A DNA stretch of 64,000 nucleotides from Rhodococcoides kyotonense (GTDB taxonomy: Bacteria; Actinomycetota; Actinomycetes; Mycobacteriales; Mycobacteriaceae): the NCBI RefSeq assembly GCF_900188125.1, contig NZ_FZOW01000005.1, forward strand, positions 124,001 through 188,000, given 5' to 3'. Position 1 is the first letter of the stretch. Each line of letters begins with the position of its first letter. The notes below the pieces were generated by a model. The model did not search any database, was not told the DNA's origin, and saw only the letters and a program-made list of their open reading frames with translations. The position numbers were made by a program, and so were the translations under genes. Shown here piece after piece: positions 17,304-39,442 of the stretch.

Positions 17304-17316
17304 CGAGTTCAGTTCG
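17304..17316. promoter_or_regulatory. 13-bp palindromic operator, copy 1 (CGAGTTCAGTTCG)
   Basis: This matches the island consensus YGAACT-N-AGTTCR on reading the opposite strand (CGAACTGAACTCG). It lies about 45 nt upstream of the ene-reductase start, on that gene's side of the divergent region. It is one of the weaker matches. The probable binder is the TetR protein encoded at 27.5 kb. Confidence 0.5.
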
Positions 17317-17352
17317 ACGATCGACCCGAAACTAACACACGGAGGCAGTTCC

Positions 17353-17365
17353 TGAACTAAATTCA
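17353..17365. promoter_or_regulatory. 13-bp palindromic operator, copy 2 (TGAACTAAATTCA)
   Basis: A near-perfect dyad with one mismatch, 28 nt before the MFS transporter start. With copy 1 it flanks the divergent promoter region, the same two-site arrangement as at 39.4 kb. The site would block or modulate the MFS promoter. Confidence 0.6.
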
Positions 17366-17392
17366 TGTTGAGCCGCATGAAGGAGGATCGTG

Positions 17393-18970
17393 ATGCAACC
17401 GCAGACTGTCGGACTACTCTCGCCGTTCCGCGTCCGAACACTGCGAATGATGCTGGGCTTCGAACTGAGTGCCAGTGTCGGAGTGTGGATTCTGGTTCTC
17501 GCCGTGCAGTGGACGCTGACCGAATCGGGTGAGTCGGCGTTCACCGTCTCGTCTGTTCAGTTCGCTGCCAGCCTGCCGTTCTTTCTGCTGTCCCTGCCGA
17601 TCGGCGCCTGGGCAGGGTACGTCGGACACCGGAGGCTGCTGGTCGCGACATCGGTCGCTCTACTCGTAGCGTCGATGTTGCTGACAGTGCTGCAGTACAT
17701 GGGGCTCGCAATTACTCCGATCCTGATGACGGCGGTATTCGTGTCCGGGTGCGGACTGGCATCCGTTGCGATCGTGTGGCAGGCGCTCCTTCCGACTCTT
17801 GCGACTCGGGAGATGATGACGGTCGTGCCGGCGATCGACGGCGCCATCTTCAACGGAGCGCGTGCGATCGGTCCTGTTCTCGGAGGCGCACTACTCGCTG
17901 CGTGGGGAGCCACGTCGACGTTCGCTCTCGTCACCGTGCTCGTCCTGCTGTGTACTGTGCTTGCGGCAACACAGATTCCGGCCCAGTCGGGGCGCGCCGA
18001 CAAGACCGGGTCCGTTCGTGAATCGGTCGAGACCAGCCTGCGATTCATCCGGCACTCACGGTGGACGCGTCGACTTCTGTTCCGCGTCATCATGTTCGGG
18101 CTGCCTGCCAGTTGCCTGTGGGCGCTGTTGCCCGTCGTTGCCTACGACATGCTCGGCGTGACGACATTCGAGTTCGGTGTTCTGTCCGGCGCCATCGGAA
18201 TCGGTGCTGTGGCCGGCACCGTCGCTCTGATGCCCCTGCGGGCTCGGCTCAGCTGGAATACCTTTGCCGCGATCGGATCGGCGGCGTACGCCGTGGTGTT
18301 GCTGGGGCTCGTCATCGTTCCGTGGACTGCGGTCGTGTTCGTGCTTCTGGTGATCGTCGGTGCTGCGTGGGTCGGGGTTCAGAGCACCTGGATGATCGCG
18401 ACGCACGCAGTCATGCCGCCGTGGATCAAATCCCGAGTGATTGCCTTCATCATGTTGACGTTCCAAGGAAGCCAGGCCGTCGGAGCCTTGGCCTGGGGGC
18501 TTCTCTCGGACAGCGTCGGACTTACTTTGTCCATCGGGGCGGCGGCAGTCGCGATGGCGTTCTCGGCAATCGGATTGCTGCGCAGGGGGATTCTTCCCAG
18601 CGAGTCGATCTCGCCGGAACCGTCCGGTGTGCGCGGGCCGCCGACGCCCATGTCCGATCACGATGGTCGGAGAATCGTCGTCGAGACCACGTACGTCGTC
18701 CATCCGGACCGAGCGAGCCACTTCGTCGGTGACATCGATCGGCTGAGGTCGTCGCGCCTTCGGCTGGGGGCGCTGCGCTGGTCGATTGCTCAGCCGACCG
18801 ACTCGACGGACACGTACGTCGAGTTCTGCACCTTCAAGAACTGGTCCGAATACAGCGCCCAGGAGACGATTCGGCTCACCGTCCCGGAACGGCTCATCCG
18901 TACGACGCTTGCCGCCGATTTGACCCAGGATCCGCGTGTCCGGATCCTCATCCATCCATCCACCGTCTGA
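17393..18970 (+). CDS. MFS transporter (MFS_3 type) with C-terminal alpha/beta domain
   Basis: A 525-residue protein. Residues about 10-400 form a major-facilitator domain with 11-12 helices. It includes the loop YVGHRRLLVATSVALLVASM (about 75-94) and a second-half copy, and resembles the MFS_3/enterobactin-exporter-like group. After a proline/arginine linker, residues about 415-525 form a soluble domain resembling the antibiotic-biosynthesis-monooxygenase/NIPSNAP ferredoxin-like fold (ETTYVVHPDRASHFVGDIDRL), as seen in other MFS_3 proteins. AGGAGG lies 6 nt before the chosen ATG; a GTG one codon earlier is also possible. It may import or export a substrate or intermediate of the pathway. Confidence 0.85.
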   Translation: MQPQTVGLLSPFRVRTLRMMLGFELSASVGVWILVLAVQWTLTESGESAFTVSSVQFAASLPFFLLSLPIGAWAGYVGHRRLLVATSVALLVASMLLTVLQYMGLAITPILMTAVFVSGCGLASVAIVWQALLPTLATREMMTVVPAIDGAIFNGARAIGPVLGGALLAAWGATSTFALVTVLVLLCTVLAATQIPAQSGRADKTGSVRESVETSLRFIRHSRWTRRLLFRVIMFGLPASCLWALLPVVAYDMLGVTTFEFGVLSGAIGIGAVAGTVALMPLRARLSWNTFAAIGSAAYAVVLLGLVIVPWTAVVFVLLVIVGAAWVGVQSTWMIATHAVMPPWIKSRVIAFIMLTFQGSQAVGALAWGLLSDSVGLTLSIGAAAVAMAFSAIGLLRRGILPSESISPEPSGVRGPPTPMSDHDGRRIVVETTYVVHPDRASHFVGDIDRLRSSRLRLGALRWSIAQPTDSTDTYVEFCTFKNWSEYSAQETIRLTVPERLIRTTLAADLTQDPRVRILIHPSTV

Positions 18971-18999
18971 ACGAAACGAGAAAGAAGGAGAAGGGGCAA

Positions 19000-20349
19000 G
19001 TGAACGACACCGAATACGACCTGCTGGTGATCGGGGCAGGTATGGCGGGGCTGACCGCCGCGGCCAGTGCGGCACGAGCGGGACGGTCGGTCTGCGTCGT
19101 CGAGATCGGACCAGACGTCGGTGGGAACGCGCGATTCGCTGGATACGTCTGGACCGCACCGACTTACGACGTGCTCGACGAGCAGAACCCGAACGGCGAC
19201 CCGTCGTTGAAGCGCCGGTTGATCGACGGGTTCGACGACGGCGTCGACTGGATCCGATCCGTGGGTGTCGACGTCGGTGAGGCGCAGAGGATTCTGAGCT
19301 TCGGCCGCGGACACAAGTTCGACACCAACCACTACGTCGACATCTGCAAGCGCATCGTGGTGGACGCGGGCGGGGTCGTCGTACTGAACACGACGACAGA
19401 GAGCCTGCTGCTGGACGGCGGGAAGGTCCACGGCGCGCGCGCTCGCACAGGCACCGAACCCGCTCGGGACCTACGTGCCACCCATACTCTTCTGGCGACC
19501 GGAGGGTTCCAAGGCGACAAGGACTTGATCGCGCAGCATGTTCATCCCGCGGCAGCCGAGATGGAACTTCGATCGAACCCACTCAGCCGCGGTGACGGCT
19601 ACCGACTGGCATCCGAGGTCCGTGCTGGGACGCGTGGCGACATGGCGGGTTTCTACGGACACCTGATTCCGAGCGGGGTCGCGCTGTCCGATCCGGCCGA
19701 CTTCGTCGACATGTCCCTCTACTACAGCGAACATGCGCTGCTGTTCGACACGAACAACGAGCGATTCGTCGACGAAACACTCGGTGACCACCTGACGACG
19801 ATGGCACTGCTCGCTCGACCTGAAGCGCGCGGACTACTGATCGCCGACGCGCGTGTGCACCGGGACTGGATGCTTGCCTCGTACGTGGAGGGCGCGGTCG
19901 CGGTCGACAAATTCGAACTTGCGGGCAAGCGCGGCGGCCGCGTCGGGCGAGCTGATTCCCTCGACGAGCTCGAGTATCTGCCGGAGGAGTGGGGATACGA
20001 CGGGGCGGCGATCGCGTCGGCGATCATGCGGTTCAATGCTGCAGCCGAGAGGGGCGACGCGCTGGCTCCCGGCCGTGCGCTCGATCCCGAACCACTCGTA
20101 GAGCCGCCGTACTACGTGATCGAGACCGTTCCGGCGATCACGTTCCCCTTCCACGGAGTGTCGATCGACGACCGAGCGCGTGTACTGACGGTCGACGGAA
20201 CTCCCGTTCCGGGCCTGCTCGCTGCGGGATCGGACACCGGTGGGCTGTGGAATCGGGCCTACGCGGGTGGATTGGCCAGTGCTCTCGTCTTCGGCCGGAC
20301 CGCCGCGGCCACTGTCATCGGTCGATCGGCGGATGCCGTTCACCACTAG
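19000..20349 (+). CDS. FAD-dependent dehydrogenase (FAD_binding_2; KstD/fumarate-reductase-like)
   Basis: A 449-residue flavoprotein. The FAD-binding GxGxxG is in VIGAGMAGLTAAASAARAG (about 8-26), a second glycine motif is ATGGFQGD (about 166-173), and the C-terminal FAD segment is GLLAAGSDTGGLWNRAYAGG. The fold is that of 3-ketosteroid delta-1-dehydrogenase, fumarate reductase and tricarballylate dehydrogenase, all of which move electrons at a C-C bond next to a carbonyl or carboxylate. The GTG start follows an AGAAGGAGAAGGGG sequence, 29 nt after the MFS gene. A desaturase role early in the pathway is likely, but the substrate cannot be named. Confidence 0.88.
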   Translation: MNDTEYDLLVIGAGMAGLTAAASAARAGRSVCVVEIGPDVGGNARFAGYVWTAPTYDVLDEQNPNGDPSLKRRLIDGFDDGVDWIRSVGVDVGEAQRILSFGRGHKFDTNHYVDICKRIVVDAGGVVVLNTTTESLLLDGGKVHGARARTGTEPARDLRATHTLLATGGFQGDKDLIAQHVHPAAAEMELRSNPLSRGDGYRLASEVRAGTRGDMAGFYGHLIPSGVALSDPADFVDMSLYYSEHALLFDTNNERFVDETLGDHLTTMALLARPEARGLLIADARVHRDWMLASYVEGAVAVDKFELAGKRGGRVGRADSLDELEYLPEEWGYDGAAIASAIMRFNAAAERGDALAPGRALDPEPLVEPPYYVIETVPAITFPFHGVSIDDRARVLTVDGTPVPGLLAAGSDTGGLWNRAYAGGLASALVFGRTAAATVIGRSADAVHH

Positions 20350-20384: not shown

Positions 20385-20413
20385 TTGACATCACAAGTAC
20401 CTGGCACTATCTT
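20385..20413 (+). promoter_or_regulatory. Sigma-70-type promoter for the importer operon
   Basis: A perfect -35 box TTGACA (20385-20390), a 17-nt spacer and a -10-like TATCTT (20408-20413) lie about 140 nt before the binding-protein gene. The expected transcription start falls at about 20420, exactly where the 13-bp palindrome begins. This is a classic position for repression. Confidence 0.7.
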
Positions 20414-20419
20414 TCAAAC

Positions 20420-20432
20420 TGACATCAGTTCA
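20420..20432. promoter_or_regulatory. 13-bp palindromic operator, copy 3 (TGACATCAGTTCA)
   Basis: One half-site is perfect (AGTTCA) and the other degenerate. It starts 6 nt after the -10 box of the importer promoter, so a bound repressor would cover the transcription start. The spacing relative to the -10 box resembles that at 38.14 kb. Confidence 0.6.
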
Positions 20433-20559
20433 GTTTAGGGCCTGACAGCTGCGAGAGTTGGGCGCCGAAACCGATCTGCTCTTCGAACGCAAGACCTTTC
20501 CCGACATTCGACGAGGACGTGCGAGTCGGCTCACTGACGTGCCCGAAAGGAACGCAGAC

Positions 20560-21597
20560 ATGAAGACATTCAAGAAGGCGACGATCGCCCTGGCCGCTAC
20601 GGCGGTGCTCGTCGGCATCACGGCGTGTGGTGGTTCCTCCAGCGCGTCCGGTCCTGTCGAGGGCAGCTGGGACGACGTGGTCGCCGCGGCTAACAGTGAG
20701 GGCAGCGTCATGCTGTACTCGAGCCAGAAGCCGGCCAACCTCGATGCCTTGGTTGCCGCATTCCAGGCCAAGTATCCGGAGATCAAGATGGAGTACGTCC
20801 GCGGGACGGACTCCGAGATCAACCCGCGAGTCGAGACCGAGAACCGCACGGGCACAGGCATTGCCGACGTCCACATGCTCACCGACGCGTCGTGGATCCA
20901 GAACGCCGCGGAATCCGGGAACTACTCGACCGATCTGATCGGGCCGGATCTCGATGCGCCTGCCTTCGATCCCGCTACCAGCGTGATCGACGACAAGTTC
21001 TTCCTCGCGAGTGCGGCGGTGTTCGGACTCGGATGGAACACCGACGCGGTACCCGGGGGTCTGACGACGCCCGAGGATCTTCTCGATCCCCAGTACCAGG
21101 GCAAGATCGGCATCGTGAATCCGACCGGGATCGCGTCGTACGTCGATCTCTATCGGTACTACAGCGAGCAGTACGGCGAGGACTACTGGAATCGGCTCGC
21201 AGCACTGCAGCCGCGCGTCTACCCCAGTGCCCTCGGTGTGGCGCAGGCGCTCACGTCCGGCGAGGTCGTCGTGAGCCCCTCGGTGCAGCCGCTGGTGACC
21301 GAAGTCGCGGCCGGTGCGCCGGTCGACTGGGCGCTCCCTGCTGAGCCGTGGGGAACCCCCTGGTACACAGAGGTTCTCAGTGCGTCGCAGCATCCGAACG
21401 CCGCGCAAGTGTTGGCCAACTTCATGGTGACGGTGGAAGGGCAGACGGCGCTCAACGGCGGATATGCCGCGGCGCTGCCCGACATCGACGGTGCTGTTGC
21501 CCGGGCTCAGGACATCGCATCTCCGGATGTCGCAGATCTGACCCCGGAAAAGGTCGAGCAGTACTCCCAGGAATGGCAGTCGCTGTTCCAGAGCTGA
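20560..21597 (+). CDS. Fe(III)/polyamine-type ABC substrate-binding lipoprotein, paralog 2
   Basis: A 345-residue lipoprotein with a short basic signal peptide and lipobox ITAC (Cys23). It shares GSWDDVVAAANSEG and the NPRVETENRTG block with the lipoprotein at 45.7 kb, and more loosely with that at 15.2 kb. The fold is that of AfuA/FbpA/PotD family-1 binding proteins. The ATPase and permease of the matching importer are encoded just downstream, separated by one SDR gene, so this is the principal binding protein of the system. A GAAAGGAA site precedes the ATG. The frame extends 34 codons upstream, but that would remove the signal peptide from the N-terminus. Confidence 0.9.
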   Translation: MKTFKKATIALAATAVLVGITACGGSSSASGPVEGSWDDVVAAANSEGSVMLYSSQKPANLDALVAAFQAKYPEIKMEYVRGTDSEINPRVETENRTGTGIADVHMLTDASWIQNAAESGNYSTDLIGPDLDAPAFDPATSVIDDKFFLASAAVFGLGWNTDAVPGGLTTPEDLLDPQYQGKIGIVNPTGIASYVDLYRYYSEQYGEDYWNRLAALQPRVYPSALGVAQALTSGEVVVSPSVQPLVTEVAAGAPVDWALPAEPWGTPWYTEVLSASQHPNAAQVLANFMVTVEGQTALNGGYAAALPDIDGAVARAQDIASPDVADLTPEKVEQYSQEWQSLFQS

Positions 21598-21626
21598 CGA
21601 GCATCCGAGAGGTAAGGACACGGCAC

Positions 21627-22409
21627 ATGACAGGAACCGGTGCGGAGATGTCGGGACGGGGCGTTCTCGTCACGGGTGGATCCGGCGGAATCGGTGGCGC
21701 GTGCGCGGAATTGTTCGTGGCGCAGGGGGCAACGGTCTACCTCACCGATGTGGACGACACGGCGGGCCGTGCGCTTGCAGATCGGTTGGGACCGAATGCG
21801 CACTACCGGCAACTCGACGTCACCAGTGAACGAGACTGGGACGCAGTTACATCCGATATGGCTCGGAATGGGCACGGACTCGATGTGCTCGTCAACAGCG
21901 CGGGTGCGGCCATGAAGGCGACTCTCCAGCAGACCACGTTGGCACAGTTTCGAAAGATGTTGGATCTCAACCTCGTCGGTACGTTTCTCGGACTGAAGGT
22001 CGCTGCCGACGTCATGCGCTCCGGCGGATCGGTTGTCAACATCTCGTCGCTCCGGGGAGTGCTCGCCACTGCCGAGCTGGGCGCATACGGTGCGTCGAAG
22101 TTCGGAGTACGCGCTCTGACCAAGGTCGCGGCTCTGGAGTTGGCGGACAAAGGTATTCGCGTCAACGCGGTGTGCCCGGGAAGCATCGATACGGCGATCA
22201 CCGCGACACCCGACTTCGCGTCGGACGACATGGAGTCCTACGTTCGCAGCATTCCGATGCAGCGTCGTGGAGAGCCCGCGGAGGTAGCCACCGTCGTCCG
22301 CTTCCTCGCGGGTCCCGAAAGTAGTTACGTGACAGGGTCGGACATCCTGGTCGACGGCGGCACAGGAGCCGGCGTACGCACACCCAAGGTTTCGAAAGTG
22401 AGTGTTTAG
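21627..22409 (+). CDS. Short-chain dehydrogenase/reductase
   Basis: A 260-residue classical SDR: cofactor motif TGGSGGIG, LTDVD after the second strand (NAD preference), NSAG, catalytic Ser in NISSLRG, Y-x3-K in YGASK, and the C-terminal GSDILVDGG. It lies between the binding-protein and ATPase genes of an ABC importer, and its stop touches the ATPase start. Gene order therefore ties an oxidoreductase step to uptake. An AGAGGTAAGGA site precedes the ATG. The likely reaction is oxidation of a secondary alcohol in the imported compound or an intermediate. Confidence 0.9.
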   Translation: MTGTGAEMSGRGVLVTGGSGGIGGACAELFVAQGATVYLTDVDDTAGRALADRLGPNAHYRQLDVTSERDWDAVTSDMARNGHGLDVLVNSAGAAMKATLQQTTLAQFRKMLDLNLVGTFLGLKVAADVMRSGGSVVNISSLRGVLATAELGAYGASKFGVRALTKVAALELADKGIRVNAVCPGSIDTAITATPDFASDDMESYVRSIPMQRRGEPAEVATVVRFLAGPESSYVTGSDILVDGGTGAGVRTPKVSKVSV

Positions 22410-23567
22410 ATGACGTCGCAATTCGTTGTTTCTTCTCTCGAGAAGACCTACGGCTCCAACGTGGTCGTCGATCATCTCGATCTGGAGATCGAGCACGGTG
22501 AATTCCTCGTACTCCTGGGGCCGAGCGGATGCGGAAAGACGACGACCCTCCGATGTCTCGCGGGGCTCGAAACCCCTCAGGGCGGGTCCATTTCGTTCCG
22601 AGGCAAGCCGGTGTTCGACGCCGCGTCGAAGGTGCACGTGCCCGCGCACAAACGCAACATCGGCATGGTCTTTCAGTCGTACGCGCTGTGGCCCCACATG
22701 ACGGTCGCCGAGAACATCCGATATCCGTTGAAGGTCAGGGGGCTCAAGAAGGCGATCGCCGACGGGGCCGTCGAGGCGGCAGCGAACATGGTGGATTGCG
22801 GCGGCTTGCTCGACCGCTATCCCTCACAGTTGAGCGGTGGACAGCAGCAGCGCGTGGCAGTGGCCCGAGGCCTCGTCGCAGAACCGGATCTCGTCCTGTT
22901 CGACGAGCCCCTGAGCAACCTCGACGCACGCCTGAGAGACCAGGTTCGTTCTCAGATCCATCAGCTTCACCAGACTCTCGGATTCACAGCGGTATTCGTG
23001 ACCCACGACCAGTCCGAGGCCTTCGCACTCGGTGACCGGCTCGCGATCATGAAGTCGGGCAGGATCGAACAGTACGACGCACCCGAGGACGTCTTCGAGA
23101 ACCCGGTGTCGGAATACGTGGCGGCATTCATCGGAATGGGAAATCGCCTCGAACTGCACAACGGGCACACCGGATGGATCACGAGCGCAGGAGACGACAT
23201 CGACCTGTCGAACGCCGTCGTACGTGATCGCGCCGACGAAGGGTCCGTCGCCGTCGCGCGTTTCCGGCCCGACGACGTGTCGCTGCACGCGTCGACGAGC
23301 GAGGTTCCCGCCGGCAACGTGGCACTGCATGCGCAGTTGGTCGCGCACGAGTACGGCGGCCGCTACTTCGACGTCACGGTGAAGACGGGTACCGAACAGT
23401 TGATGCTCCGCGCGTCGGCCGCCGAACACGGTCCGTCGCTCCGTCGCAGCAGTCCAGGGGACGATGTCGTCGTCAGCTTCTCGCCGTCGTGCCTGCGGGT
23501 ATACGCGGGTGAAGCTGTCGAAGCAGCCTCCACGCAAGATCTCGTCGCAACAGGAGACCGTTCCTGA
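22410..23567 (+). CDS. ABC transporter ATPase, FbpC/PotA type
   Basis: A 385-residue ATPase of the Fe(III)/spermidine/putrescine importer class. Walker A GPSGCGKT, Q-loop VFQSYALWPHMT, signature LSGGQQQR, Walker B LVLFDEPLSNLDA and H-loop VTHDQSEA are intact in the first 210 residues. The C-terminal third is a TOBE-type regulatory domain (RFRPDDVSLHAS...). It abuts the SDR gene upstream and overlaps the permease gene by 1 nt. With the adjacent fused permease it forms a complete importer core, probably used by all three paralogous binding proteins of the island. Confidence 0.92.
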   Translation: MTSQFVVSSLEKTYGSNVVVDHLDLEIEHGEFLVLLGPSGCGKTTTLRCLAGLETPQGGSISFRGKPVFDAASKVHVPAHKRNIGMVFQSYALWPHMTVAENIRYPLKVRGLKKAIADGAVEAAANMVDCGGLLDRYPSQLSGGQQQRVAVARGLVAEPDLVLFDEPLSNLDARLRDQVRSQIHQLHQTLGFTAVFVTHDQSEAFALGDRLAIMKSGRIEQYDAPEDVFENPVSEYVAAFIGMGNRLELHNGHTGWITSAGDDIDLSNAVVRDRADEGSVAVARFRPDDVSLHASTSEVPAGNVALHAQLVAHEYGGRYFDVTVKTGTEQLMLRASAAEHGPSLRRSSPGDDVVVSFSPSCLRVYAGEAVEAASTQDLVATGDRS

Positions 23568-25291: not shown

Positions 25292-25307
25292 CGAGGACAG
25301 GACGAAC

Positions 25308-27468: not shown

Positions 27469-27480
27469 GCTTCTCCTAAG

Positions 27481-27493
27481 TGAATTCTGTTCG
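27481..27493. promoter_or_regulatory. 13-bp palindromic operator, copy 4 (TGAATTCTGTTCG)
   Basis: On the coding strand it reads CGAACAGAATTCA followed by CTTA, matching the CTT tail seen at other copies. It lies between the TetR gene and the EthD-like gene, immediately before the latter's ribosome-binding site. It would allow separate control of the EthD-hydrolase pair. Confidence 0.6.
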
Positions 27494-31579: not shown

Positions 31580-31590
31580 GGTTTCTCTCG

Positions 31591-32349
31591 TCAGTAGACG
31601 GCCGTACGGCCGCCGTCCACGGGAATGAGTGCACCGGTGGTGTATCCGGCGTCGTCGGACGCGAGATGGGTCACGAGCCCGGCGATCTCCTCGGGTCGTC
31701 CCAGTCTGGCGGCCGGGAGACGGTCGACGATCTTGCCGATGAACTCGTCGTCCCAGTTCTCGGACATGTCGGTGGCGAAACCGCCCGGCATCACACAGTT
31801 CACTCGGACCCTAGGAGCGTATTCCTGGGCGAAGGCCCTTGTCAGGGCGTTGAGGCCGTTCTTCGCTGCCGCGTACATCGCCTCGGGCGGACTGGGGCGC
31901 TCGGCGCCGATGCTCGAGATGTTGACGATGGATCCGCCTCCAGCCGCCGCCATGCGTTGCCCGGCAACGGCCATCAACCGGAACGGGCCCTTGAGATTCA
32001 CTTCGATGGTCTTGTCCCACAGGCCTTCTGTGACTGCGGCAAGGTTGTCGGCCAGCGGAGCGATACCCGCGTTGTTGACGACGATGTCGAGGCTGCCGAA
32101 CCGCTCGATGATCTCGTCGACTGCGGGTTCGATGGTGTCCCATTGTCCGACATGAAGGGCGAACGGGTGTGCTGTGCCCGGCCCTGTGTCGCCGAGCGAC
32201 GCCACTGCCGACTCGCAAGCATCCAGCTTTCGACTCGATACGACGACCGTCGCACCCGCGTCGCGTAACCCACGCGCTATCGCCAGTCCGAGCCCGCGAC
32301 TTGCGCCCGTGACCAGAGCGACCTTGCCTGCCAATTTCGGTGTACTCAT
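31591..32349 (-). CDS. Short-chain dehydrogenase/reductase
   Basis: A 252-residue SDR: TGASRGLGLAIARG, VVSSRKLDA (NADP preference), VNNAG, NISSIGAE, Y-x3-K in YAAAKNG and ending GALIPVDGG. Its start overlaps the end of the ACAD10/11-type gene by 4 nt, so the two are translationally coupled. Direct coupling to the dehydrogenase that would remove an activated hydroxyl makes a role on the same hydroxyacyl/ketoacyl intermediate plausible. Confidence 0.91.
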   Translation of the reverse strand: MSTPKLAGKVALVTGASRGLGLAIARGLRDAGATVVVSSRKLDACESAVASLGDTGPGTAHPFALHVGQWDTIEPAVDEIIERFGSLDIVVNNAGIAPLADNLAAVTEGLWDKTIEVNLKGPFRLMAVAGQRMAAAGGGSIVNISSIGAERPSPPEAMYAAAKNGLNALTRAFAQEYAPRVRVNCVMPGGFATDMSENWDDEFIGKIVDRLPAARLGRPEEIAGLVTHLASDDAGYTTGALIPVDGGRTAVY

Positions 32350-33548
32350 GTGTACTTCTTCACCTCGAGTCGTGCGATGGTTCGCAGGTGGACCTCGTTG
32401 GGTCCGTCGGCGATCTGCAGGGCGCGCGTGATGGCGTAGAGCCGCGCGAGGATCGTGTCGTTACTGACGCCTGCGGCGCCGTGTACCTGGACGGCTCGAT
32501 CGACGACGTTGTGTGCGACCTCCATGGCCGCCACCTTGATCGCAGCGACTTCCGAACGGGCAGAAGCATTTCCGCGCGTGTCCATGAGCCATGCGGATTT
32601 GAGGACCAACAGCCGGATCTGGTCGATCTCGACTCGACTGCGTGCGATCCACTCGCGTACGACGCCGCGGTTCGACAGTGGTCCCCCGAACGCGTGGCGC
32701 TCGGTGGACCTGCGGCACATCATCTCCAGGGCGCGTTCGGCCATGCCGATCGCACGCATCGCGTAGTGCATGCGACCCGGTCCCAGGCGGCCCTGCGCGA
32801 TCGCGAAACCGTCACCCTCGGCACCGAGCATGTTCGACGCGGGCACACGGACATCGGTGAATTGGACTTCACCGTGTCCGAGCCGGTCCTGGAAGCCGAA
32901 CATCGGCAGATCACGCAGGACCTCGATGCCCGGCGCGTCCGTCGGAACCAGGATCATGCTCTGCTGCCGGTACGTCGGTCCGTCCGGATCCGACTTTCCC
33001 ATGAAGATCATCAGCTTGCAGTCGGGGTCGAGTACGCCCGAGGTGTACCACTTACGGCCGTTGATCACGTACTCGTCGCCGTCGCGGCGAATCGTCGAGG
33101 TGATGTTGGTGGCATCGGAGCTGGCGACGTCGGGTTCCGTCATCGCGAACGCAGAACGAATACTGCAGTCCAGCAGCGGTTTCAGCCACTGATTCTTCTG
33201 TTCTTCGGTCCCGTACATGGCCAGAATCTCCATGTTGCCGGTGTCCGGCGCCGAGCAGTTGACGGCCTCGTTGCCGATGATGGATCGGCCGACGATCTCG
33301 GCGAGTGGAGCGTATTCGAGGTTGGTGAGCCCTGCGCCGAGGCCGTCGTGGGTCATGAACAGATTCCACAATCCGAGTTCGCGGGCGCGGGCCTGCAGAT
33401 CGCGCATGATCTGCGGCTGCTCGTGTGGATTGTCGTTCGCGGCGATCTGCTCGTCGTAGACCTTCTCGGCCGGATAAACGTGATCGTTCATGAAGGCTTC
33501 GAGCGTGCCGGTCAGTTCTTCGGTGCGTGGGGAGTAGGAGAAGTCCAC
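32346..33548 (-). CDS. Acyl-CoA dehydrogenase, ACAD10/11 (LvaC-like) type
   Basis: A 400-residue acyl-CoA dehydrogenase. FAD-binding stretches include FAMTEPDVASSDATNI and INGRKWYTSGVLDPDCKL. The C-terminal ADGPNEVHLRTIARLE is typical of the ACAD10/ACAD11 subgroup rather than of ordinary fatty-acid enzymes. In ACAD11 and bacterial LvaC this domain works on 4-phosphooxyacyl-CoA made by an APH-type kinase, eliminating phosphate. The kinase-like gene here lies 29 nt upstream in the same operon. I start at a GTG with AGGAG 7 nt upstream (VDFSYSP...); the frame continues further up without similarity. Confidence 0.9.
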   Translation of the reverse strand: MDFSYSPRTEELTGTLEAFMNDHVYPAEKVYDEQIAANDNPHEQPQIMRDLQARARELGLWNLFMTHDGLGAGLTNLEYAPLAEIVGRSIIGNEAVNCSAPDTGNMEILAMYGTEEQKNQWLKPLLDCSIRSAFAMTEPDVASSDATNITSTIRRDGDEYVINGRKWYTSGVLDPDCKLMIFMGKSDPDGPTYRQQSMILVPTDAPGIEVLRDLPMFGFQDRLGHGEVQFTDVRVPASNMLGAEGDGFAIAQGRLGPGRMHYAMRAIGMAERALEMMCRRSTERHAFGGPLSNRGVVREWIARSRVEIDQIRLLVLKSAWLMDTRGNASARSEVAAIKVAAMEVAHNVVDRAVQVHGAAGVSNDTILARLYAITRALQIADGPNEVHLRTIARLEVKKYT

Positions 33549-33577
33549 GTGTTCGCTCCTGAAAGTTGGTGGTGGCG

Positions 33578-34528
33578 TCAGTGCCGAAGCAAGGCGGTAC
33601 CGGTGTGGATCAATCTGTCGATGGTCGCCGGGAGTTTCTCCTGGTCCGGGTCGATATGGCGTCCTTCGCGGTGGCGTCGCAGATTGTGTCCCATGATCGC
33701 GGCCATCTTCAGACGCCCCAGGGCGTCGAACCATGTCATGTCCGGAATCTCCGGGCCGGTTTTCGTGTACGCGGAGATCAGTTGGGCGGTGGTAGGTAGA
33801 CCTGGCACCTCGCGGCCGACGCCGGGGAAGTTGGTGCCGTCGGCGAAGACGAGAAACCATCCGAGTTCCACCCGTGGGTCGCCGGCACTCCAGATCTCCC
33901 AGTCGATCAACGCTGCCGGTTCGTCGCCGGTGGAGATGATGTTGCCGAGTCGGTAATCGCCGTGCACGAGAACAGGTTCGACGGGCTCGGGCACATCCGA
34001 ACGAAGGAGCCTCAGGAGTTCGTCGCCCCCGACGACCAATTCGGGCGGCACCGCACCCAACGTGCGAGCCCATCGCTCGAGTTCGTCGGCGGGCGACAGC
34101 GGCGCGCCCGCACCGGGAACGGAGTCGAGGTCGACGGCGTGCAGCCGGGGGAGGACCTCGGCTGCACGAAGCATCCGTCGAGCCGCGACGTCGGCATCGA
34201 CTGCGGGGTCGTCGAGGACCGGCTCCAGAGATTCACCCTCGACCAATTCCATGGCGAACCATGCCGGTTCGGTGTCGTCGACGGCGACGATGCGCGGGAC
34301 CGGGACATCGGTGTCGGCCAAGGACTGCAGAATGGATGCCTGACGGAGCATGTCGTGGCGTCCGATCGAACGTTGGCCTTCCGGAACAGCTTTGACGACG
34401 ATGGCACCGTCGGATGTGCTTGCGCGGTAGGTCAGACCCGAGTGTCCGCCAGGCAGGATGTCGAAGTCCGTGACTTCTCGTCCGGCCAGTGCGGTGACTA
34501 CGCGAGATTCGAGCGTCGAGTGCGTCAT
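33578..34528 (-). CDS. APH-family kinase (ACAD10/11 N-domain or LvaA-like)
   Basis: A 316-residue aminoglycoside-phosphotransferase-fold protein. The glycine-rich start LPGGHSGLTYRA, catalytic loop HGDYRLGN and metal-binding IDWE are all present, so it should be an active kinase. Homologs beside or fused to acyl-CoA dehydrogenases (human ACAD10/11, Pseudomonas LvaA) phosphorylate the 4-hydroxyl of 4-hydroxyacyl-CoAs. Antibiotic resistance is unlikely in this setting. The ATG overlaps the stop of the upstream dehydrogenase gene (ATGA) and has a GGGAG site. Confidence 0.89.
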   Translation of the reverse strand: MTHSTLESRVVTALAGREVTDFDILPGGHSGLTYRASTSDGAIVVKAVPEGQRSIGRHDMLRQASILQSLADTDVPVPRIVAVDDTEPAWFAMELVEGESLEPVLDDPAVDADVAARRMLRAAEVLPRLHAVDLDSVPGAGAPLSPADELERWARTLGAVPPELVVGGDELLRLLRSDVPEPVEPVLVHGDYRLGNIISTGDEPAALIDWEIWSAGDPRVELGWFLVFADGTNFPGVGREVPGLPTTAQLISAYTKTGPEIPDMTWFDALGRLKMAAIMGHNLRRHREGRHIDPDQEKLPATIDRLIHTGTALLRH

Positions 34529-35733
34529 GGTTTCGGCTCCCGGGGAAGGCCGAGTACTCGCTCGGCGATGATGTTGTGCTGGATCTCGTCCGTTCCGCCG
34601 GCGATGCGGTATCCGGGTGCACCGAGGAGGTGTTCGGACCACGCGAACGTCCCCCACCGCCCGGAATCGGATGTCGCCTCACGCCCGAGCAGCAGTCGGA
34701 CGACGTCCGACGTCGTAGCCATCGTGTCGGTGGCGAGCAATTTGCCCAACGACGCCTCGGGCCCTGGATCGTTGCCTGCGACGATCGCGCCTGCCACGCG
34801 CATGGTGCCGATTCGTTGCACGTAACTGCGGGTCACGAGGTCGGCGACTGCGTCGCGCTCGATTTCGGTCAACTCACGGCCGAGGTTGCGAGCCAGCTCC
34901 ACTGCCTGATCGGCGTTGGCGAGCCCGAGAGTGCCGCCGTCGAGACGCTCGGCCGCCAGTACCGTGAGCGCTACCTGCCATCCTCGTCCGACCGGACCGA
35001 GGCGGTGCGTATCGTCGAGTTCGACGCCCTCCAGATAGACCTCGTTGAAGGAGCTGCCGCCGGTCATCTGACGAATAGGCCTGACGGTGACGCCCGGGGC
35101 GTTGATGGGGACCAGGAGCATCGTCAGTCCCGCGTATTTGGAGACGCTGGTGTCGGTGCGGCACAACGCGACTCCGTAGTCCGCGACGAGTGCGCCGGAC
35201 GTCCACACCTTGTGGCCGTCGATGATCCACGAACCATCCGGTGTCCGGTCGGCTCTGGTACGTACCGCGGCGAGATCGGAGCCCGCTTCCGTTTCGGAGA
35301 ACAGCTGGCAGGCAATGAGATCGGTGCGCAGCATCGCGCGCACGAACTTGGCCTTCTGTTCGTCGGTGCCCCACTGCTGGATGGTCGGTGCCACCAATTG
35401 CTGAGTCACCGAGAACATCTCGGTGCGGCGAGGTACGTCGAATGCTTCCTCGGCGCGCCGGAAAGCCAGCACGTACGACATGGGTAGATCGTGTCCACCG
35501 AACTCGACAGGAGAGTTCAGTGCACCCCAACCCGCGTCGAACTTGGCTTTCTCGTAGCGAGAAATAGTGTCCGTGTGCTCGCGCTCCTGCTCGGCGGTCC
35601 AGTTCTCGAATACGGCCACCGAGTCGGGACCCTCGCCCCACACTGCTTCGGTGCGCGGCTGTGCGACGGAGGCAAGCCATGCGTGTGCGTTCTCGGTGAA
35701 CTCGGCGAGGTCGGGAATCGTTGTCTGTGTCAC
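34525..35733 (-). CDS. Acyl-CoA dehydrogenase family protein
   Basis: A 402-residue acyl-CoA dehydrogenase. Characteristic stretches are CQLFSETEAGSDLAAVRT, IDGHKVWTSGALVADYG and the C-terminal GGTDEIQHNIIAERVLGLPRE. The position that holds the catalytic Glu in MCAD-type enzymes (YEGT) reads AGGT, as in many actinobacterial subunits that work as alpha2-beta2 heterotetramers or use a Glu elsewhere. The 379-residue dehydrogenase at 38.2 kb is a possible partner. It lies 27 nt after the thiolase-like gene and overlaps the kinase gene. Confidence 0.9.
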   Translation of the reverse strand: MTQTTIPDLAEFTENAHAWLASVAQPRTEAVWGEGPDSVAVFENWTAEQEREHTDTISRYEKAKFDAGWGALNSPVEFGGHDLPMSYVLAFRRAEEAFDVPRRTEMFSVTQQLVAPTIQQWGTDEQKAKFVRAMLRTDLIACQLFSETEAGSDLAAVRTRADRTPDGSWIIDGHKVWTSGALVADYGVALCRTDTSVSKYAGLTMLLVPINAPGVTVRPIRQMTGGSSFNEVYLEGVELDDTHRLGPVGRGWQVALTVLAAERLDGGTLGLANADQAVELARNLGRELTEIERDAVADLVTRSYVQRIGTMRVAGAIVAGNDPGPEASLGKLLATDTMATTSDVVRLLLGREATSDSGRWGTFAWSEHLLGAPGYRIAGGTDEIQHNIIAERVLGLPREPKP

Positions 35734-35760
35734 TTGATCAGCCTCTTGGTCGACGACGGC

Positions 35761-36912
35761 TCACACCGTCAGCACGGTGCAGGCACTGATGCCCGGTGCC
35801 CCGTAGACGTGGGTGAATCCGACACGTGGATCGTTCGGAACCTGGCGCTCACCCGCCTCGCCGCGGAGTTGGGTGACTATCTCGTGGACTTGGCGCAGTC
35901 CCGACGCGCCGATCGGTTCGCCGTTGGCGATGCACCCACCGTCGGTGTTGATCGGGAGCCTGCCGCCGATCTCGGTGTCGCCGGCGGCGATCATGGCTTC
36001 CTGTTCGCCGGGCTTGCAGAACCCGCATTCGGCCATGTGCATGATCTCGGCGCCGCTCTCGGTGTCCTGCAACTGTGCGACGTCGACGTCCTCGGGGCCG
36101 AGGCCCGCGAGTTCGAAGGCGGCGGCCGCCGCGTCGGCGCTCACGCTGGTGGGTTCACCGGTGCCTTGAACGGACGGGCTGAACACCTCGAAGGACCCGA
36201 ACTGCCGTGTGCGGTGCGCGATTGCGCGGAGGTGGACAGGACGCCCACCGAGCCTGGCGACAGCGTTCGCGCCGGCAACGACGATGGCCGCGGCGCCCTC
36301 GCCGGGGGAGCAGAACATGTACCGGGTAAGTGGATCGTTGACCATGTCGGCGCTCGCGATGGTATCGACGTCGATGGCGTCGCGACGCCAGGCATTGGGG
36401 TTCAGGGAACCGTTTCGGTACGCCTTCGCAGCAACCCGAGCGAGTGTGTCGCGAGAGATGTCGTGCCGACGCATGTAGCGCGAGATCTTCGCGCCGAAGA
36501 ATTGAGTCGTGACCATCAGACCGGCTTCACCGTAGCCTTCGGGAAGTCCCCAGTCGGCGGGCCTCGGGTCGAACGCACCGCGCGGATGTTTGTCGAAACC
36601 CACTGCAAGCGCGATCTCGGCAGCCCCGGACCGAACTGCGTTGACCGCCGAGAAGAGCGCACTGCCGCCCGTCGCGCACCCGTTCTTGACGTTCGTGAAC
36701 GGGATCCCGGTCAAACCGAGTTCTGCGACGAGTGTGTCGGCGAGTCCCGATCCGTCGCTGCCACCGAACGCCACCTGGACGTCCGGCCACGCAATCCCCG
36801 CATCCCGCACGGCGGATTCGATTGCGCTGACGGCCATCTGGCGGCCGCTGACACCGGGCTGCCTGCCGAACTTGGACAGCCCGGCGCCGATGATCGAAAC
36901 ATTTTGTATCAC
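35761..36912 (-). CDS. Thiolase-fold protein (SCP-x/Ltp type, DUF35 partner)
   Basis: A 383-residue thiolase-fold protein. The nucleophile Cys79 is kept in NVKNGCATGG. The usual GHP motif of thiolases is changed to G331-E332-P333 (ANGEPIGASG), and the last active-site motif reads H368-V-Y370-G in place of the CxG of ordinary thiolases. This pattern fits the lipid-transfer-protein/retro-aldolase branch, whose members need a DUF35 partner, such as Ltp2 in steroid side-chain removal. The DUF35 gene is directly upstream, overlapping by 4 nt. It may cleave a C-C bond by retro-Claisen or retro-aldol chemistry. The GTG start has AGGAG 7 nt away. Confidence 0.88.
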   Translation of the reverse strand: MIQNVSIIGAGLSKFGRQPGVSGRQMAVSAIESAVRDAGIAWPDVQVAFGGSDGSGLADTLVAELGLTGIPFTNVKNGCATGGSALFSAVNAVRSGAAEIALAVGFDKHPRGAFDPRPADWGLPEGYGEAGLMVTTQFFGAKISRYMRRHDISRDTLARVAAKAYRNGSLNPNAWRRDAIDVDTIASADMVNDPLTRYMFCSPGEGAAAIVVAGANAVARLGGRPVHLRAIAHRTRQFGSFEVFSPSVQGTGEPTSVSADAAAAAFELAGLGPEDVDVAQLQDTESGAEIMHMAECGFCKPGEQEAMIAAGDTEIGGRLPINTDGGCIANGEPIGASGLRQVHEIVTQLRGEAGERQVPNDPRVGFTHVYGAPGISACTVLTV

Positions 36913-37349
36913 TGCGAAACTCCTGCCGTCGAGTGAGCTACCACGCTGAACCGGGGCACCGGCGAGGTGGACACCAATCTCACCGGTGCCTGGTCCAGTT
37001 CGTCGAAGCGCTCGCAGTCGATGATCGCTTCGACCTTGATGCCGTCTGGTAGTTCGACGTATCCGACGGCGAACGGCCGAAATCCTCCTGGGGGAGGGAC
37101 ATACGGCGGCGACTTCGGTGCGAAACGCTGCACGGTGTACGCCCACACGGTTCCGGTGGTGCTCAGCGTCGCCGGAACGGCTGTCGGCGTCGCACACCTG
37201 CTGCACATCGAGCTGGCAGGAAAGGCGACTGTGCCGCACTTCGTGCACTTGCTACCTTCGAGCGCAAGGCCCGCCGTCGTGTCCATCTCCATCCCTTCGG
37301 GTAGTCGTCCGGCTGCGGAAACGTCAGCGACCGACCCACTTGGGTTCAC
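36909..37349 (-). CDS. DUF35 OB-fold/rubredoxin-like zinc-ribbon protein
   Basis: A protein of up to 146 residues. The zinc ribbon CTKCG-x9-CSRC (about residues 35-53) is complete, followed by an OB-fold domain with the typical GTVWAYTVQRF and RPFAVGYVELPDG segments. Proteins of this kind bind the acyl-CoA and stabilise thiolase-like partners. Its stop overlaps the thiolase-fold gene (GTGA). The start is uncertain: the GTG used here overlaps the enoyl-CoA hydratase gene by 26 nt, whereas ATGs at 37292 and 37286 would give 127- or 125-residue proteins with the ribbon still intact. Confidence 0.87.
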   Translation of the reverse strand: MNPSGSVADVSAAGRLPEGMEMDTTAGLALEGSKCTKCGTVAFPASSMCSRCATPTAVPATLSTTGTVWAYTVQRFAPKSPPYVPPPGGFRPFAVGYVELPDGIKVEAIIDCERFDELDQAPVRLVSTSPVPRFSVVAHSTAGVSQ

Positions 37350-38112
37350 GCTTCTCGAGGAATGCGGTGACGCCCTCCTTGCCGTCCTCGGACTGCAGTG
37401 CGTTGCCGACCGCGAGGTGTTCCATGACCATGAGGGACTGGATGTCCGCGTCGAGGCCGCGGTCGATGCACATCTTGGTCAGCTTCATCATGAACGGACT
37501 CTTGTCCACCAGGGGTGCGATGAAGTCCGCAACCAGCTGGTCGAGCTCGGCTGCCGGTGCCGACGCATTGATGAGGTCGAAGTCGACCGCTTCCTGGCCG
37601 CTGAGCAGCTTGCCGGTCAGCATCAGTTCCTTGGTCTTGCGGATGCCGATCATGCGTGGCAATCGGTAGATGGGCCCGGCGCCACCGAACAGTGCCCGGC
37701 GGATGTGGAAGTCGCCGATCTTCGCGTCGTCCGAGGCGACGGCGAAGTCGCAGGAGATCATCAGTTCGAATCCACCTGCGGTGACGTAGCCTTCGAGCAC
37801 TGCGACCGATGGGGTGTTCATCGAGTAGAGCCGATCGCAGACCTTTGCGGACAGCACCGCGACGTCCATGGCGTTGGTGGTTCCGACGAAGTCCGACAGC
37901 AATTCGTCGAGGTCGAATCCAGAGCAGAATTGGTTCTGGACACCGCGCAGGACAAGGACTTTCAGGTTCGGGTCGTTGTCGACCTCGACGATGATCTCGT
38001 CGAGGCGGTGCAGCAGTTCGACCGTCACTGCGTTCTTCTTGTGGGGGCGGTTCAGCCAGACACGAGCAACCTCGCCGTCCTTCTCCAACAAGATGTGGTC
38101 GGTCTCAACCAT
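37324..38112 (-). CDS. Enoyl-CoA hydratase/isomerase family protein
   Basis: A 262-residue crotonase-fold protein. The oxyanion-hole segments are FCSGFDL (about 62-68) and EGYVTAGGFELMI (about 108-120). At the first typical catalytic Glu position the sequence has RRALFGGAGPIYRL, without the usual acid pair of hydratases, so an isomerase, hydrolase or lyase activity is possible. It is the first gene of a minus-strand operon of about 12 kb running to the acyl-CoA ligase and TetR genes. It is preceded by a sigma-70-like promoter with a palindromic operator just after the -10 box. Confidence 0.88.
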   Translation of the reverse strand: MVETDHILLEKDGEVARVWLNRPHKKNAVTVELLHRLDEIIVEVDNDPNLKVLVLRGVQNQFCSGFDLDELLSDFVGTTNAMDVAVLSAKVCDRLYSMNTPSVAVLEGYVTAGGFELMISCDFAVASDDAKIGDFHIRRALFGGAGPIYRLPRMIGIRKTKELMLTGKLLSGQEAVDFDLINASAPAAELDQLVADFIAPLVDKSPFMMKLTKMCIDRGLDADIQSLMVMEHLAVGNALQSEDGKEGVTAFLEKREPKWVGR

Positions 38113-38150: not shown

Positions 38151-38155
38151 CTTCA

Positions 38156-38184
38156 GTATTAGCTACCAGGTCTGTCGACGTCAA
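38156..38184 (-). promoter_or_regulatory. Sigma-70-type promoter of the large minus-strand operon
   Basis: On the minus strand, TTGACG (38184-38179) and TAATAC (38161-38156) are separated by 17 nt. The transcription start would fall in or next to the palindromic operator at 38138-38150. The arrangement mirrors the promoter at 20.4 kb. Confidence 0.5.
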
Positions 38185-38215
38185 TAGCTGAACCGAAGGT
38201 GGTTCGAAAAGGGCT

Positions 38216-39355
38216 CTAGAGTGCGACCAGATCGGCGATCCGTGCGCGGTGTGTGCGCGAATCACCCTGTATCGCTTCGTTTCCCAGCGCGCGTCTCAAG
38301 TAGGAATGCGCAGGATGCTCCCACGTGAACCCGACGCCACCGTGTAGCTGCACTGCCTCGTGCACGGCGTGGAGGGCGGCATCGATGCATACCGCACCCG
38401 CCACCGCGATGGCCAAATGGGCATCGTCGGGGCGTCCGTCGTAGACGGCTGCTGCATATCTCGCCGCGGACCGTGCGCGTTCGAGCTCGATCAACACATC
38501 GGCGAGACGGTGCTTGACGGCCTGAAAGGACCCGATCGGCCGGCCGAATTGGCTGCGCGTCTTCACGTACTCCACCGTCATGTCGAGTACTGCATCCGCG
38601 ATGCCGGTGTTCTCGCTGGCCAACGCCAATGTCGACAAGTCTCGCAGGTGCGCGATGTACGTCGCACTGTGCTCGGCGGACGCCAGCAGAATTGCCGGGG
38701 ACTGTGTGACAGTGAGGTCGGCCTGACGTCGGGTCGGGTCGAGTACGGTCCTCGGGCGCGCATCGACGTGACGTTCTGTCTCGAGCGCGAAGACGCCGAC
38801 GCCGTCCTCGTACTGGGCCGACACGACGACGACGTCGGCCCCGCTGCCGCCGACAACGTTGTGCGACTCCCCGTCGAGAATCCATCCCGATTCGGTCTTG
38901 CGGGCGAGGATTCGGTCCCCTTCGGTGGTCAGCGTGCTGACGGCGGCCACCGCGGAGCCGTCGAGAAGCTTCTTGCGCGCCTCGTCGGTGTGCGTGGGGG
39001 CGTGGAGAAAGGCCTGGACTCCGAGAACGGCCGAGGAATAGACCGGCTCGGGGGACAGGCTGCGCCCGCATTCTTCGAGGATGATGCCCAGTTCGACCAT
39101 GCCGTAGCCGAGACCACCCTGGTCCTCGGGCGCAGCGAGCGTGGTGACGGACATGTCGTCGACGAGTCGCGTCCATTGTTCGGACGAGTATCCGAGCGGC
39201 GTCTGCGAGACCGTCCTTATCTGTTCTACCGTCGCGTATTTGGCGAAAATGCCACGAACGGCGTCCCGGATGCCTGCTTGTTCGTCGCCGGGCGTCAGTG
39301 CTGCTGGTTCGAACCTGGGCCGCGGGGCTTCGATGGTGATCGTCGACGGTGCCAT
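38216..39355 (-). CDS. Acyl-CoA dehydrogenase family protein
   Basis: A 379-residue acyl-CoA dehydrogenase of the FadE type. Typical elements are APEDQGGLGYGMVELGIILEECG in the N-terminal helical domain and VKTRSQFGRPIGSFQAVKHRLAD in the C-terminal one, then HGGVGFTWEHPAHSYLRRAL. The end lacks the GGT-EIQ motif, as in the second subunits of heterotetrameric steroid-type dehydrogenases. It may pair with the 402-residue dehydrogenase or act alone. It is divergent from the SnoaL-like pair, with two operator copies in between, and is separated from the downstream operon by 103 nt holding a promoter. Confidence 0.9.
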   Translation of the reverse strand: MAPSTITIEAPRPRFEPAALTPGDEQAGIRDAVRGIFAKYATVEQIRTVSQTPLGYSSEQWTRLVDDMSVTTLAAPEDQGGLGYGMVELGIILEECGRSLSPEPVYSSAVLGVQAFLHAPTHTDEARKKLLDGSAVAAVSTLTTEGDRILARKTESGWILDGESHNVVGGSGADVVVVSAQYEDGVGVFALETERHVDARPRTVLDPTRRQADLTVTQSPAILLASAEHSATYIAHLRDLSTLALASENTGIADAVLDMTVEYVKTRSQFGRPIGSFQAVKHRLADVLIELERARSAARYAAAVYDGRPDDAHLAIAVAGAVCIDAALHAVHEAVQLHGGVGFTWEHPAHSYLRRALGNEAIQGDSRTHRARIADLVAL

Positions 39356-39366
39356 GTCACTCCACT

Positions 39367-39379
39367 CGAGTTGAGTTCA
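39367..39379. promoter_or_regulatory. 13-bp palindromic operator, copy 6 (CGAGTTGAGTTCA)
   Basis: Lies 12 nt before the dehydrogenase start on the minus-strand side of the divergent region. One half-site is exact (AGTTCA), the other weaker, and a CTTTAC tail follows. It is paired with copy 7 on the other side. Confidence 0.55.
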
Positions 39380-39429
39380 CTTTACTTTTGCACGATAGCG
39401 CGGAAGACTCTCGACAAACAGAGTCAATT

Positions 39430-39442
39430 CGAACTAAGTTCA
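39430..39442. promoter_or_regulatory. 13-bp palindromic operator, copy 7 (CGAACTAAGTTCA)
   Basis: The best dyad in the window (GAACT-A-AGTTC), followed by CTTC. It ends only 4 nt before the ATG of the first SnoaL-like gene, where a ribosome-binding site would normally be. Either the transcript is leaderless or a bound repressor directly covers the translation start region. Confidence 0.65.

Follow-up and report, generated by a model that had tools for sequence, protein, structure and literature searches.

The 64-kb window analyzed here is a stretch of the genome of the soil bacterium Rhodococcoides kyotonense (contig NZ_FZOW01000005.1, positions 124,001 to 188,000; all coordinates below count from the first nucleotide of the window). 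It contains an island of catabolic genes with a single gene for a TetR-family protein, tetR, and eight copies of a 19-bp palindrome. The island TetR is very probably an autoregulated local repressor of a regulon of 29 genes plus tetR for catabolism by way of CoA thioesters; the palindromes are its predicted operators, from which it would be released by an acyl-CoA. The sites, their conservation, their position and their co-occurrence with tetR are features of the genome sequences. Binding of the sites by the island TetR, repression, the pairing of dimers, the acyl-CoA ligand and the transcription units as drawn below are all probable.

The palindrome represents a predicted, well-defined operator for a regulon of several actinobacterial genera, which is carried by chromosomes and, in Rhodococcus, also by megaplasmids. 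The repressor, its probable 19-letter address and the genes recur together in several bacterial orders. The operators, taken with the gene order, delimit the pathway (29 genes and tetR) and so narrow the search for its substrate, for which the regulator-operator pair would be a natural sensor. Autoregulated TetR proteins with local catabolic regulons are a known type, of which this member is apparently undescribed: no description of the regulator, the motif or the cluster was found in titles and abstracts among the matches listed, subscription papers lying outside the search.

Predicted operators in the window and in the genus

A preliminary description of the window had reported seven copies of a palindromic 13-mer, YGAACTNAGTTCR, and each of them is present at its claimed position. 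The copy at 39430 has no mismatch to this sequence, that at 17353 has one, and the other five (17304, 20420, 27481, 38138 and 39367) have two each. The 13-mer itself is a poor genome probe and was rejected as such because of its chance-level frequency: with up to three mismatches it occurs 60 times in the window versus 65.9 +/- 8.2 times in shuffled sequences, and with up to two mismatches 13 times, six of which are additional to the seven reported copies. The signal emerges once the CTT tail that had been noted at many copies is taken to belong to a 19-bp palindrome built around the 13-mer core. This length follows from the aligned upstream blocks of relatives that carry the cluster, which run beyond the 13-mer. 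The consensus of 94 non-redundant sites (324 raw) is AACTGAACTNAGTTCAGTT, with the strongest columns at AA.TGAA.T and its mirror. The 19-mer therefore replaced the 13-mer as the genome probe.

The eight sites are listed below with the first gene or the unit that each precedes; scores are from a symmetric 19-bp matrix trained on five promoter sites within the genus.

17296..17314, unstranded: predicted operator on the MDR side of the divergent MDR/MFS gap; 16.4 bits, leave-one-out rank 1, not kept in the relative G006
17350..17368, unstranded: predicted operator on the MFS side of the MDR/MFS gap; 17.4 bits, outside the training set, leave-one-out rank 1
20417..20435, unstranded: predicted operator of the SBP1-SDR2-ABC-SDR3 unit (13-mer at 20420); 25.7 bits, in 10/10 genus cluster relatives
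27478..27496, unstranded: predicted operator of the EthD-MBL unit (13-mer at 27481); 24.6 bits, in 10/10 genus cluster relatives
28208..28231, unstranded: predicted tetR operator, 24 bp, two registers 5 bp apart; 14.8 and 11.6 bits
38135..38158, unstranded: predicted operator of the unit running from ECH to tetR, 24 bp, two registers (13-mer at 38138); 25.2 and 16.6 bits
39364..39387, unstranded: predicted operator of ACAD3 (13-mer at 39367), second register 5 bp on; 21.4 and 14.7 bits, in 10/10 genus cluster relatives
39427..39445, unstranded: predicted operator of the unit running from SnoaL to SBP3 (13-mer at 39430); 23.1 bits, ending 1 bp short of the start codon of SnoaL

The ECH site is over-weighted in the matrix, because nearest-distance matching placed five of the 11 SnoaL training rows (G026, G014, G021, G011 and G012) on it. 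At a threshold of 14 bits the 64 kb contain just 10 matching positions, which correspond to the eight sites, two of them with a second register 5 bp off. Order-2 Markov windows contain 0.45 such matches on average and four at most (300 windows). In a leave-one-out ranking, which used the window sites alone and is independent of the genus matrix, each of the eight sites outscores every other 19-mer in the window when the matrix is built from the remaining seven; the registers of the tetR and 17296 sites had been picked after an initial scan. The site reported at 17304 reads better 5 bp leftward, the 19-mer 17296-17314 scoring 16.4 bits versus 7.3 at 17301.

A rate of 0.45 per 64 kb amounts to about 45 chance matches of 14 bits in a genome of this size (6.31 Mb), so the three weakest sites (28213 with 14.8 bits, 17296 with 16.4 and 17350 with 17.4) cannot rest on their score. 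The tetR site is backed by conservation in the genomes compared, and the MDR/MFS sites are backed by it in part: the 17350 site (13-mer 17353) is found in G006 and G036 and is absent upstream of MFS in G035, G011 and G012. The tetR site, 28208-28231, is the eighth copy and is absent from the preliminary description; it occupies the final codons of the gene for the CoA ligase (28201-29718). The claim that no copy lies inside a gene therefore holds for the seven listed there but not for the full set.

Upstream alignments show that the sites at SnoaL, ACAD3, ECH, EthD and SBP1 are kept in all 10 cluster relatives while the flanks have diverged. About 20 bp of the operator at 38135 are invariant across 11 genomes, and the GAACTAAGTTC core of the 39427 operator is likewise unchanged in 11 genomes.

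The frequency of the motif in unrelated genes bears on the earlier proposal that it defines a local regulon. The 19-mer pattern for the genome scans was designed after the relatives' upstream alignments, so that the relatives' sites match it partly by construction and its scarcity elsewhere is the informative part. With up to three mismatches it occurs five times in the own genome, four of these in the island, and a reversed control pattern occurs once. Across 37 genomes of the genus, at the same tolerance, the 12 that have tetR contain 84 sites between them and the 25 that lack it contain 56 (reversed control, 49 overall). With up to two mismatches there are 31 sites, of which 29, each no more than 21 kb from tetR, are in the 11 genomes having this gene as well as the cluster. 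The other two are in the 25 genomes that lack tetR. The control pattern matches 16 times, across both kinds of genome. The sites are thus concentrated in the island in the own genome and near tetR in the genus, and the proposal is supported.

The sole match to the 19-mer outside the island in the own genome (up to three mismatches, C24:292026, 16.6 bits) is at the junction of two open reading frames (ORFs), which we take by eye to be PaaK-like and AraC-like. As a regulon site it is provisionally set aside as a chance match, about 45 such scores being expected per 6.3 Mb. The own genome has one further exact copy of the 13-mer, at C24:186331, which falls within an ORF and gives no match to the matrix at 9 bits or more. 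Several relatives have further 19-mer matches 19-23 kb from tetR (G011:C1:945377 and 947278; G012:C1:1420573 and 1422474; G014:C1:2264350; G015:C45:41626). As these are similarly placed, the regulon may be larger there.

The TetR protein and the recurrence of its predicted sites

The proposed binder is encoded by the following gene:

27535..28152, minus strand: tetR, TetR-family repressor of 205 amino acids, with Pfam TetR_N and TetR_C_24 domains

Both Pfam matches are above their cut-offs (PF00440, 42 bits; PF17932, 68 bits), and the AlphaFold2 model is all-helical with a pLDDT of 92. Among NCBIfam families, 15 models matched the protein and none reached its cut-off; the score to FadR of the Bacillus type (NF053878) is 42 bits versus a cut-off of 200. 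The recognition helix is invariant in 25 orthologues, and in the helix-turn-helix stretch V42-M64 22 of the 23 columns are invariant among 25 TetR proteins that are 53-92% identical to that of the window.

A predicted palindromic operator, with a match of at least 8.5 bits, is present in the tetR promoter itself in 33 of 37 relatives (surveyed out of 56 with tetR), versus 2.7% of random 160-bp stretches. The four promoters without a site are those of G008, G177, G351 and G367, and a kinase gene of the cluster, described further below, was not found in any of these genomes (E <= 1e-60). G145, G148 and G198 also are without the kinase gene, yet the site is present in their tetR promoters. In a second set, all 60 tetR promoters have a match of at least 8.5 bits. 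The two sets share genomes, and the named loci described next include close relatives within Nocardia and Streptomyces, so these counts are not independent. In the family sample, tetR is found in 57 of 401 genomes (the own genome included), and tetR accompanies the kinase gene in 48 of the 49 genomes that have the latter; the remaining one, G373, has a kinase that is just 43% identical. The preliminary description had named the single TetR of the island as the likely binder, and this is supported by the site in its own promoter, by the invariant recognition helix and by sites that track tetR across genomes. A TetR 73% identical to that of the window is encoded without the cluster at G008:C54:145630-146244.

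A pattern-based scan of named genomes found relatives in Nocardia, Williamsia, Gordonia, Tomitella, Rhodococcus, Aeromicrobium, Nocardioides and Streptomyces. Fifty-nine of 60 loci were kept, L179 being dropped (40% identity over 48 residues). On 21 regions, 20 of them from other genera and the latter extending about 10 kb from tetR, the genus matrix gives 115 matches of at least 12 bits, versus a mean of 3.8 and a maximum of 35 for 200 permuted matrices; the count takes both registers of double sites. Rhodococcus megaplasmids of 595 and 704 kb carry tetR together with the kinase gene (R. qingshengii J1-2, locus L180, and Rhodococcus sp. BH4, NZ_CP014942.1). All 17 matches of at least 15 bits on the R. 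qingshengii plasmid are intergenic, in a stretch of which 89% is annotated as coding. Three weaker matches (13.7, 11.2 and 10.7 bits) are within genes, and that of 13.7 bits is the tetR-promoter site.

The position of the sites at the heads of operons was examined in 52 named loci outside the genus, a site being a match that scores 11 bits or more and is no further than 200 bp upstream; the own-genus loci L120-L122, L125-L127 and L129 and promoters with fewer than 60 upstream bases were omitted. Sites are present upstream of ECH (24/24), tetR (46/52), SBP1 (12/17), ACAD3 (4/5) and SnoaL (3/3). EthD has a site in 22 of 42 cases, namely in 22/22 outside Streptomyces and in 0/20 within it. Genes interior to the units (THIO, ACAD2, APH, ACS, SDR4, SDR5, MBL, ABCp, ABCa and FadB) have one site in 338 cases. 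The remaining genes give SDR3 1/45, MDR 3/6, MFS 0/1, OYE 1/6 and CoAL 2/44.

Predicted mode of action and its alternatives

By combining the sites, the gene order and the properties of the protein, it is possible to propose a sequence of events. A TetR dimer would bind AACTGAACTNAGTTCAGTT, and at several promoters, most clearly at that of tetR, two dimers, offset by 5 bp, would occupy opposite helix faces. The bound protein would block seven catabolic units across 14396-46746 and also curb its own synthesis, as the operators lie on or next to a -10 region, a ribosome-binding site or a start codon. When the substrate enters the cell and becomes a CoA thioester, an acyl-CoA intermediate would fill the C-terminal pocket. 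TetR would then be released, and the transport and degradation genes would be induced together.

Two sigma-70-like promoters were found in a scan of 20300-39500 (19.2 kb):

20385..20413, plus strand: candidate promoter TTGACA-17-TATCTT of the SBP1 unit
38155..38184, minus strand: candidate promoter TTGACG-18-AATACT of the ECH unit, TTGACG being invariant in 11 genomes

Both touch operators: that at 20417 begins 3 bp past the first promoter, and that at 38135 overlaps the -10 of the second. Since 2.4 matches are expected by chance, the positions of the promoters carry weight, not their number. The operator at 27478 is directly upstream of the ribosome-binding site of the EthD-MBL unit, and the tetR operator is centered 70 bp ahead of the start of tetR. 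Contact with the -10 at 20417 and 38135, and the location of 39427 next to a start codon, fit a repressor that blocks RNA polymerase.

At many sites a second half-site is found exactly 5 bp further out from the palindrome. Across the 94 sites its mean score is -0.01 versus -3.3 to -4.4 at 14 positions further out, and it reaches at least 3 bits in 23% of the sites versus 1-5% at those positions; the offsets were tested outward only. Five base pairs being half a helical turn, this offset would place a second dimer across the helix from the first, and the half-site suggests paired dimers. The nearest folds to the TetR model are PfmR, KstR2 (4w97, rank 2), DarR, 3dcf and AibR (5k7z, rank 9), at about 20-30% identity. 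KstR2 responds to a CoA thioester. An acyl-CoA is the likely inducer by analogy, because AibR has been solved with isovaleryl-CoA and because of this response of KstR2.

Several observations weigh against the autoregulated-repressor reading. The 25 genus genomes without tetR hold 56 sites at up to three mismatches. G008 has none at up to two mismatches and none at its tetR promoter. The MDR/MFS sites are missing in some relatives that carry those genes. The promoter scan gave no -35/-10 pair at 27478, 28208, 39364 or 39427. In Streptomyces, no EthD promoter (0/20) and 15 of 20 tetR promoters have a site of at least 11 bits. Nine of the 57 genomes with tetR are without the kinase gene. The association between tetR and the motif outside the genus is partly due to selection, because most loci were found through a tetR search; the checks that did not start from tetR are the genus-wide pattern scans and the kinase-gene search.

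It is possible, though doubtful, that the ligand is the free substrate, a lactone or another small molecule and that a single dimer binds each operator, the 5-bp half-site being a by-product of the AACTG/CAGTT repeat within the palindrome. The fold neighbors from which the ligand class is taken give class-level hints at their low identity, and one of them, DarR, has been solved with c-di-AMP and cAMP. However, the cluster is centered on CoA thioesters, and the outer half-site is outside the 19-mer by which the sites were selected and is enriched at the 5-bp register, not at the 14 positions further out.

Some TetR-family proteins are activators, and an NCBIfam title among the matches of the island TetR names FasR as one. 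That this TetR activates, or acts in both ways, would agree with the four operators at which the scan gave no promoter (17296 and 17350 were outside the scanned range). It is nevertheless unlikely, as the operators at 20417 and 38135 are just after or on a -10 and that at 39427 ends next to the start codon.

It is still less probable that the sites are true operators of another regulator, such as the MarR protein encoded at 46814, whose family likewise binds palindromes, or a TetR from another part of the genome, for which no dedicated search was made. However, orthologues of this MarR are present in 37/37 genus genomes, including the 25 that lack tetR and hold two of the 31 sites, and the MarR gene is away from the cluster in all 10 cluster relatives except G006, whereas the sites follow tetR. 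On this distribution, in genomes with and without the motif, MarR was rejected as the binder. The island tetR has the motif in its own promoter from the genus to Streptomyces, with an invariant recognition helix, and nearly all family genomes with the kinase gene (48/49) have tetR. Finally, a functionless chance cluster of 13-mer repeats, to which the chance-level frequency of the loosely matched 13-mer might point, can be dismissed in view of the sites kept in 10/10 cluster relatives amid diverged flanks, the leave-one-out ranking, the confinement to the cluster across the genus and the recurrence in other orders.

The proposed repressor can be compared with known TetR-family regulators. The KstR2 (Rv3557c) box is AnCAAGnnCTTGnT, with kstR2 promoters as the training set (PMC3068626). 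KstR2 resembles the island TetR as a repressor with a box in its own promoter and a catabolic regulon, and it is the second-ranked solved fold. The box differs from AACTGAACTNAGTTCAGTT here, to which the consensus of the 94 sites corresponds, and identity over the fold match is 24%. The box of KstR (Rv3574) is TnnAACnnGTTnnA (TAGAAC-N2-GTTCTA) and is partly over the -10 in its own promoter (PMC1995591). The two systems share the half-site core GAAC/GTTC and an own-promoter box that partly overlaps the -10; they differ in spacing, GAAC-N2-GTTC versus GAAC-N3-GTTC here, and in the flanks. The island TetR scores 34 bits against the NCBIfam KstR model (cut-off, 280). The earlier statement that the motif is unlike the KstR and KstR2 boxes thus stands for the complete box, but not for the half-site core, which is common to KstR at a spacing of N2 rather than N3.

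CprB binds as two dimers at opposite sides of 22 bp (PMC4150764). Two dimers on a longer operator, as with CprB and QacR, is what is proposed for the 24-bp tetR and ECH sites, and a second half-site at a fixed small offset, as in QacR-like binding, is found at the 5-bp register. The ligands set QacR (cationic drugs) and CprB (gamma-butyrolactone class) apart, and the pairing suggested here comes from the sequence alone. AibR, solved with operator DNA as well as with isovaleryl-CoA, shares the fold and is 21% identical to the TetR of the window.

Genes of the predicted regulon and the pathway

Units were drawn from gene order and gaps. On gene order, a site heads the unit of each of the 29 genes and of tetR, from 14396 to 46746. 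At the left, AKR and ACAD1 are outside such units, as is MarR at the right.

14396..17258, minus strand: MDR (16239-17258), SBP2 (about 16242 down to 15187) and SDR1 (14396-15175), from gene calls, with NCBIfam for MDR
17393..20349, plus strand: MFS exporter and FAD-binding oxidoreductase (19000-20349), from Pfam
20560..26063, plus strand: SBP1 lipoprotein, SDR2, ABC ATPase, ABC permease and SDR3, from Pfam, with NCBIfam for SBP1, the ATPase and SDR3
26129..27468, minus strand: EthD-family protein (27139-27468) and MBL-fold hydrolase (26129-27139), from Pfam and NCBIfam
28201..38112, minus strand: ECH unit ending in the CoA ligase (28201-29718), then tetR, from Pfam/NCBIfam
38216..39355, minus strand: ACAD3, IpdE2-like acyl-CoA dehydrogenase, NCBIfam 175 bits, under the cut-off of 450
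39447..46746, plus strand: SnoaL, NTF2-like protein, thiolase AcAT, FadB, OYE-type reductase and SBP3, from family matches

The ECH unit has the order ECH, OB-fold protein (from 36909), lipid-transfer-type thiolase, ACAD2, APH kinase, ACAD11-like dehydrogenase, SDR5, SDR4, Zn-ADH, CoA ligase and tetR. Some names lean on the annotated R. qingshengii locus L180: SDR2 and the ABC permease were named from their sequence together with it, the OB-fold protein after its place in it, and the NTF2-like protein, which has no Pfam match, from its neighbors there. The regulon comprises three solute-binding lipoproteins, one ABC importer, an MFS exporter, a CoA ligase, acyl-CoA dehydrogenases, an enoyl-CoA hydratase, thiolases, FadB, short-chain dehydrogenases, EthD and an MBL-fold protein.

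Two adjacent genes of the ECH unit bear on the pathway:

32346..34522, minus strand: APH kinase (33578-34522) beside the ACAD11-like dehydrogenase (32346-33572), from sequence search

The dehydrogenase scores 437 bits to 4hr3, a putative acyl-CoA dehydrogenase, and 426 to ACAD11, the next protein scoring 152. The best match of the kinase is 3dxp with 63 bits, and the kinase domain of ACAD11 scores 58 bits. On these scores the two genes resemble a split ACAD11-like or LvaA-LvaC-like pair. A kinase and an ACAD-type protein convert 4-hydroxyacyl-CoA to 2-enoyl-CoA in mammals (ACAD10/11) and in the lva operon (PMC12440821). The pair of the window is like ACAD11 divided over two genes; it differs from the lva operon of Pseudomonas putida in being within a far larger cluster under a TetR, and the likeness is drawn through the ACAD11 alignment, not from LvaA/LvaC directly. 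By this analogy a 4-hydroxyacyl-CoA is a plausible intermediate. A fuller picture can be sketched tentatively, and as a whole is rather less likely to hold than to fail: a so far undescribed regulator-operator pair, conserved from Rhodococcoides to Streptomyces, with two dimers 5 bp apart, may control a complete split kinase/ACAD11-type 4-hydroxyacyl-CoA route to a beta-oxidation substrate, with an acyl-CoA as inducer and perhaps with a lactone opened by the MBL hydrolase at its start.

The three solute-binding lipoproteins (15187-16242, 20560-21597 and 45709-46746) are related to one another, are accompanied by one ABC ATPase/permease, and are all in site-headed units. Just beyond the regulon, at 13120-14406, is an SfnB-like flavin-dependent oxidoreductase (274 bits; cut-off, 431). 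At the other end the MarR gene (46814-47275) adjoins the cluster. Because it is a genus-wide core gene, the cluster looks inserted beside it both here and in G006.

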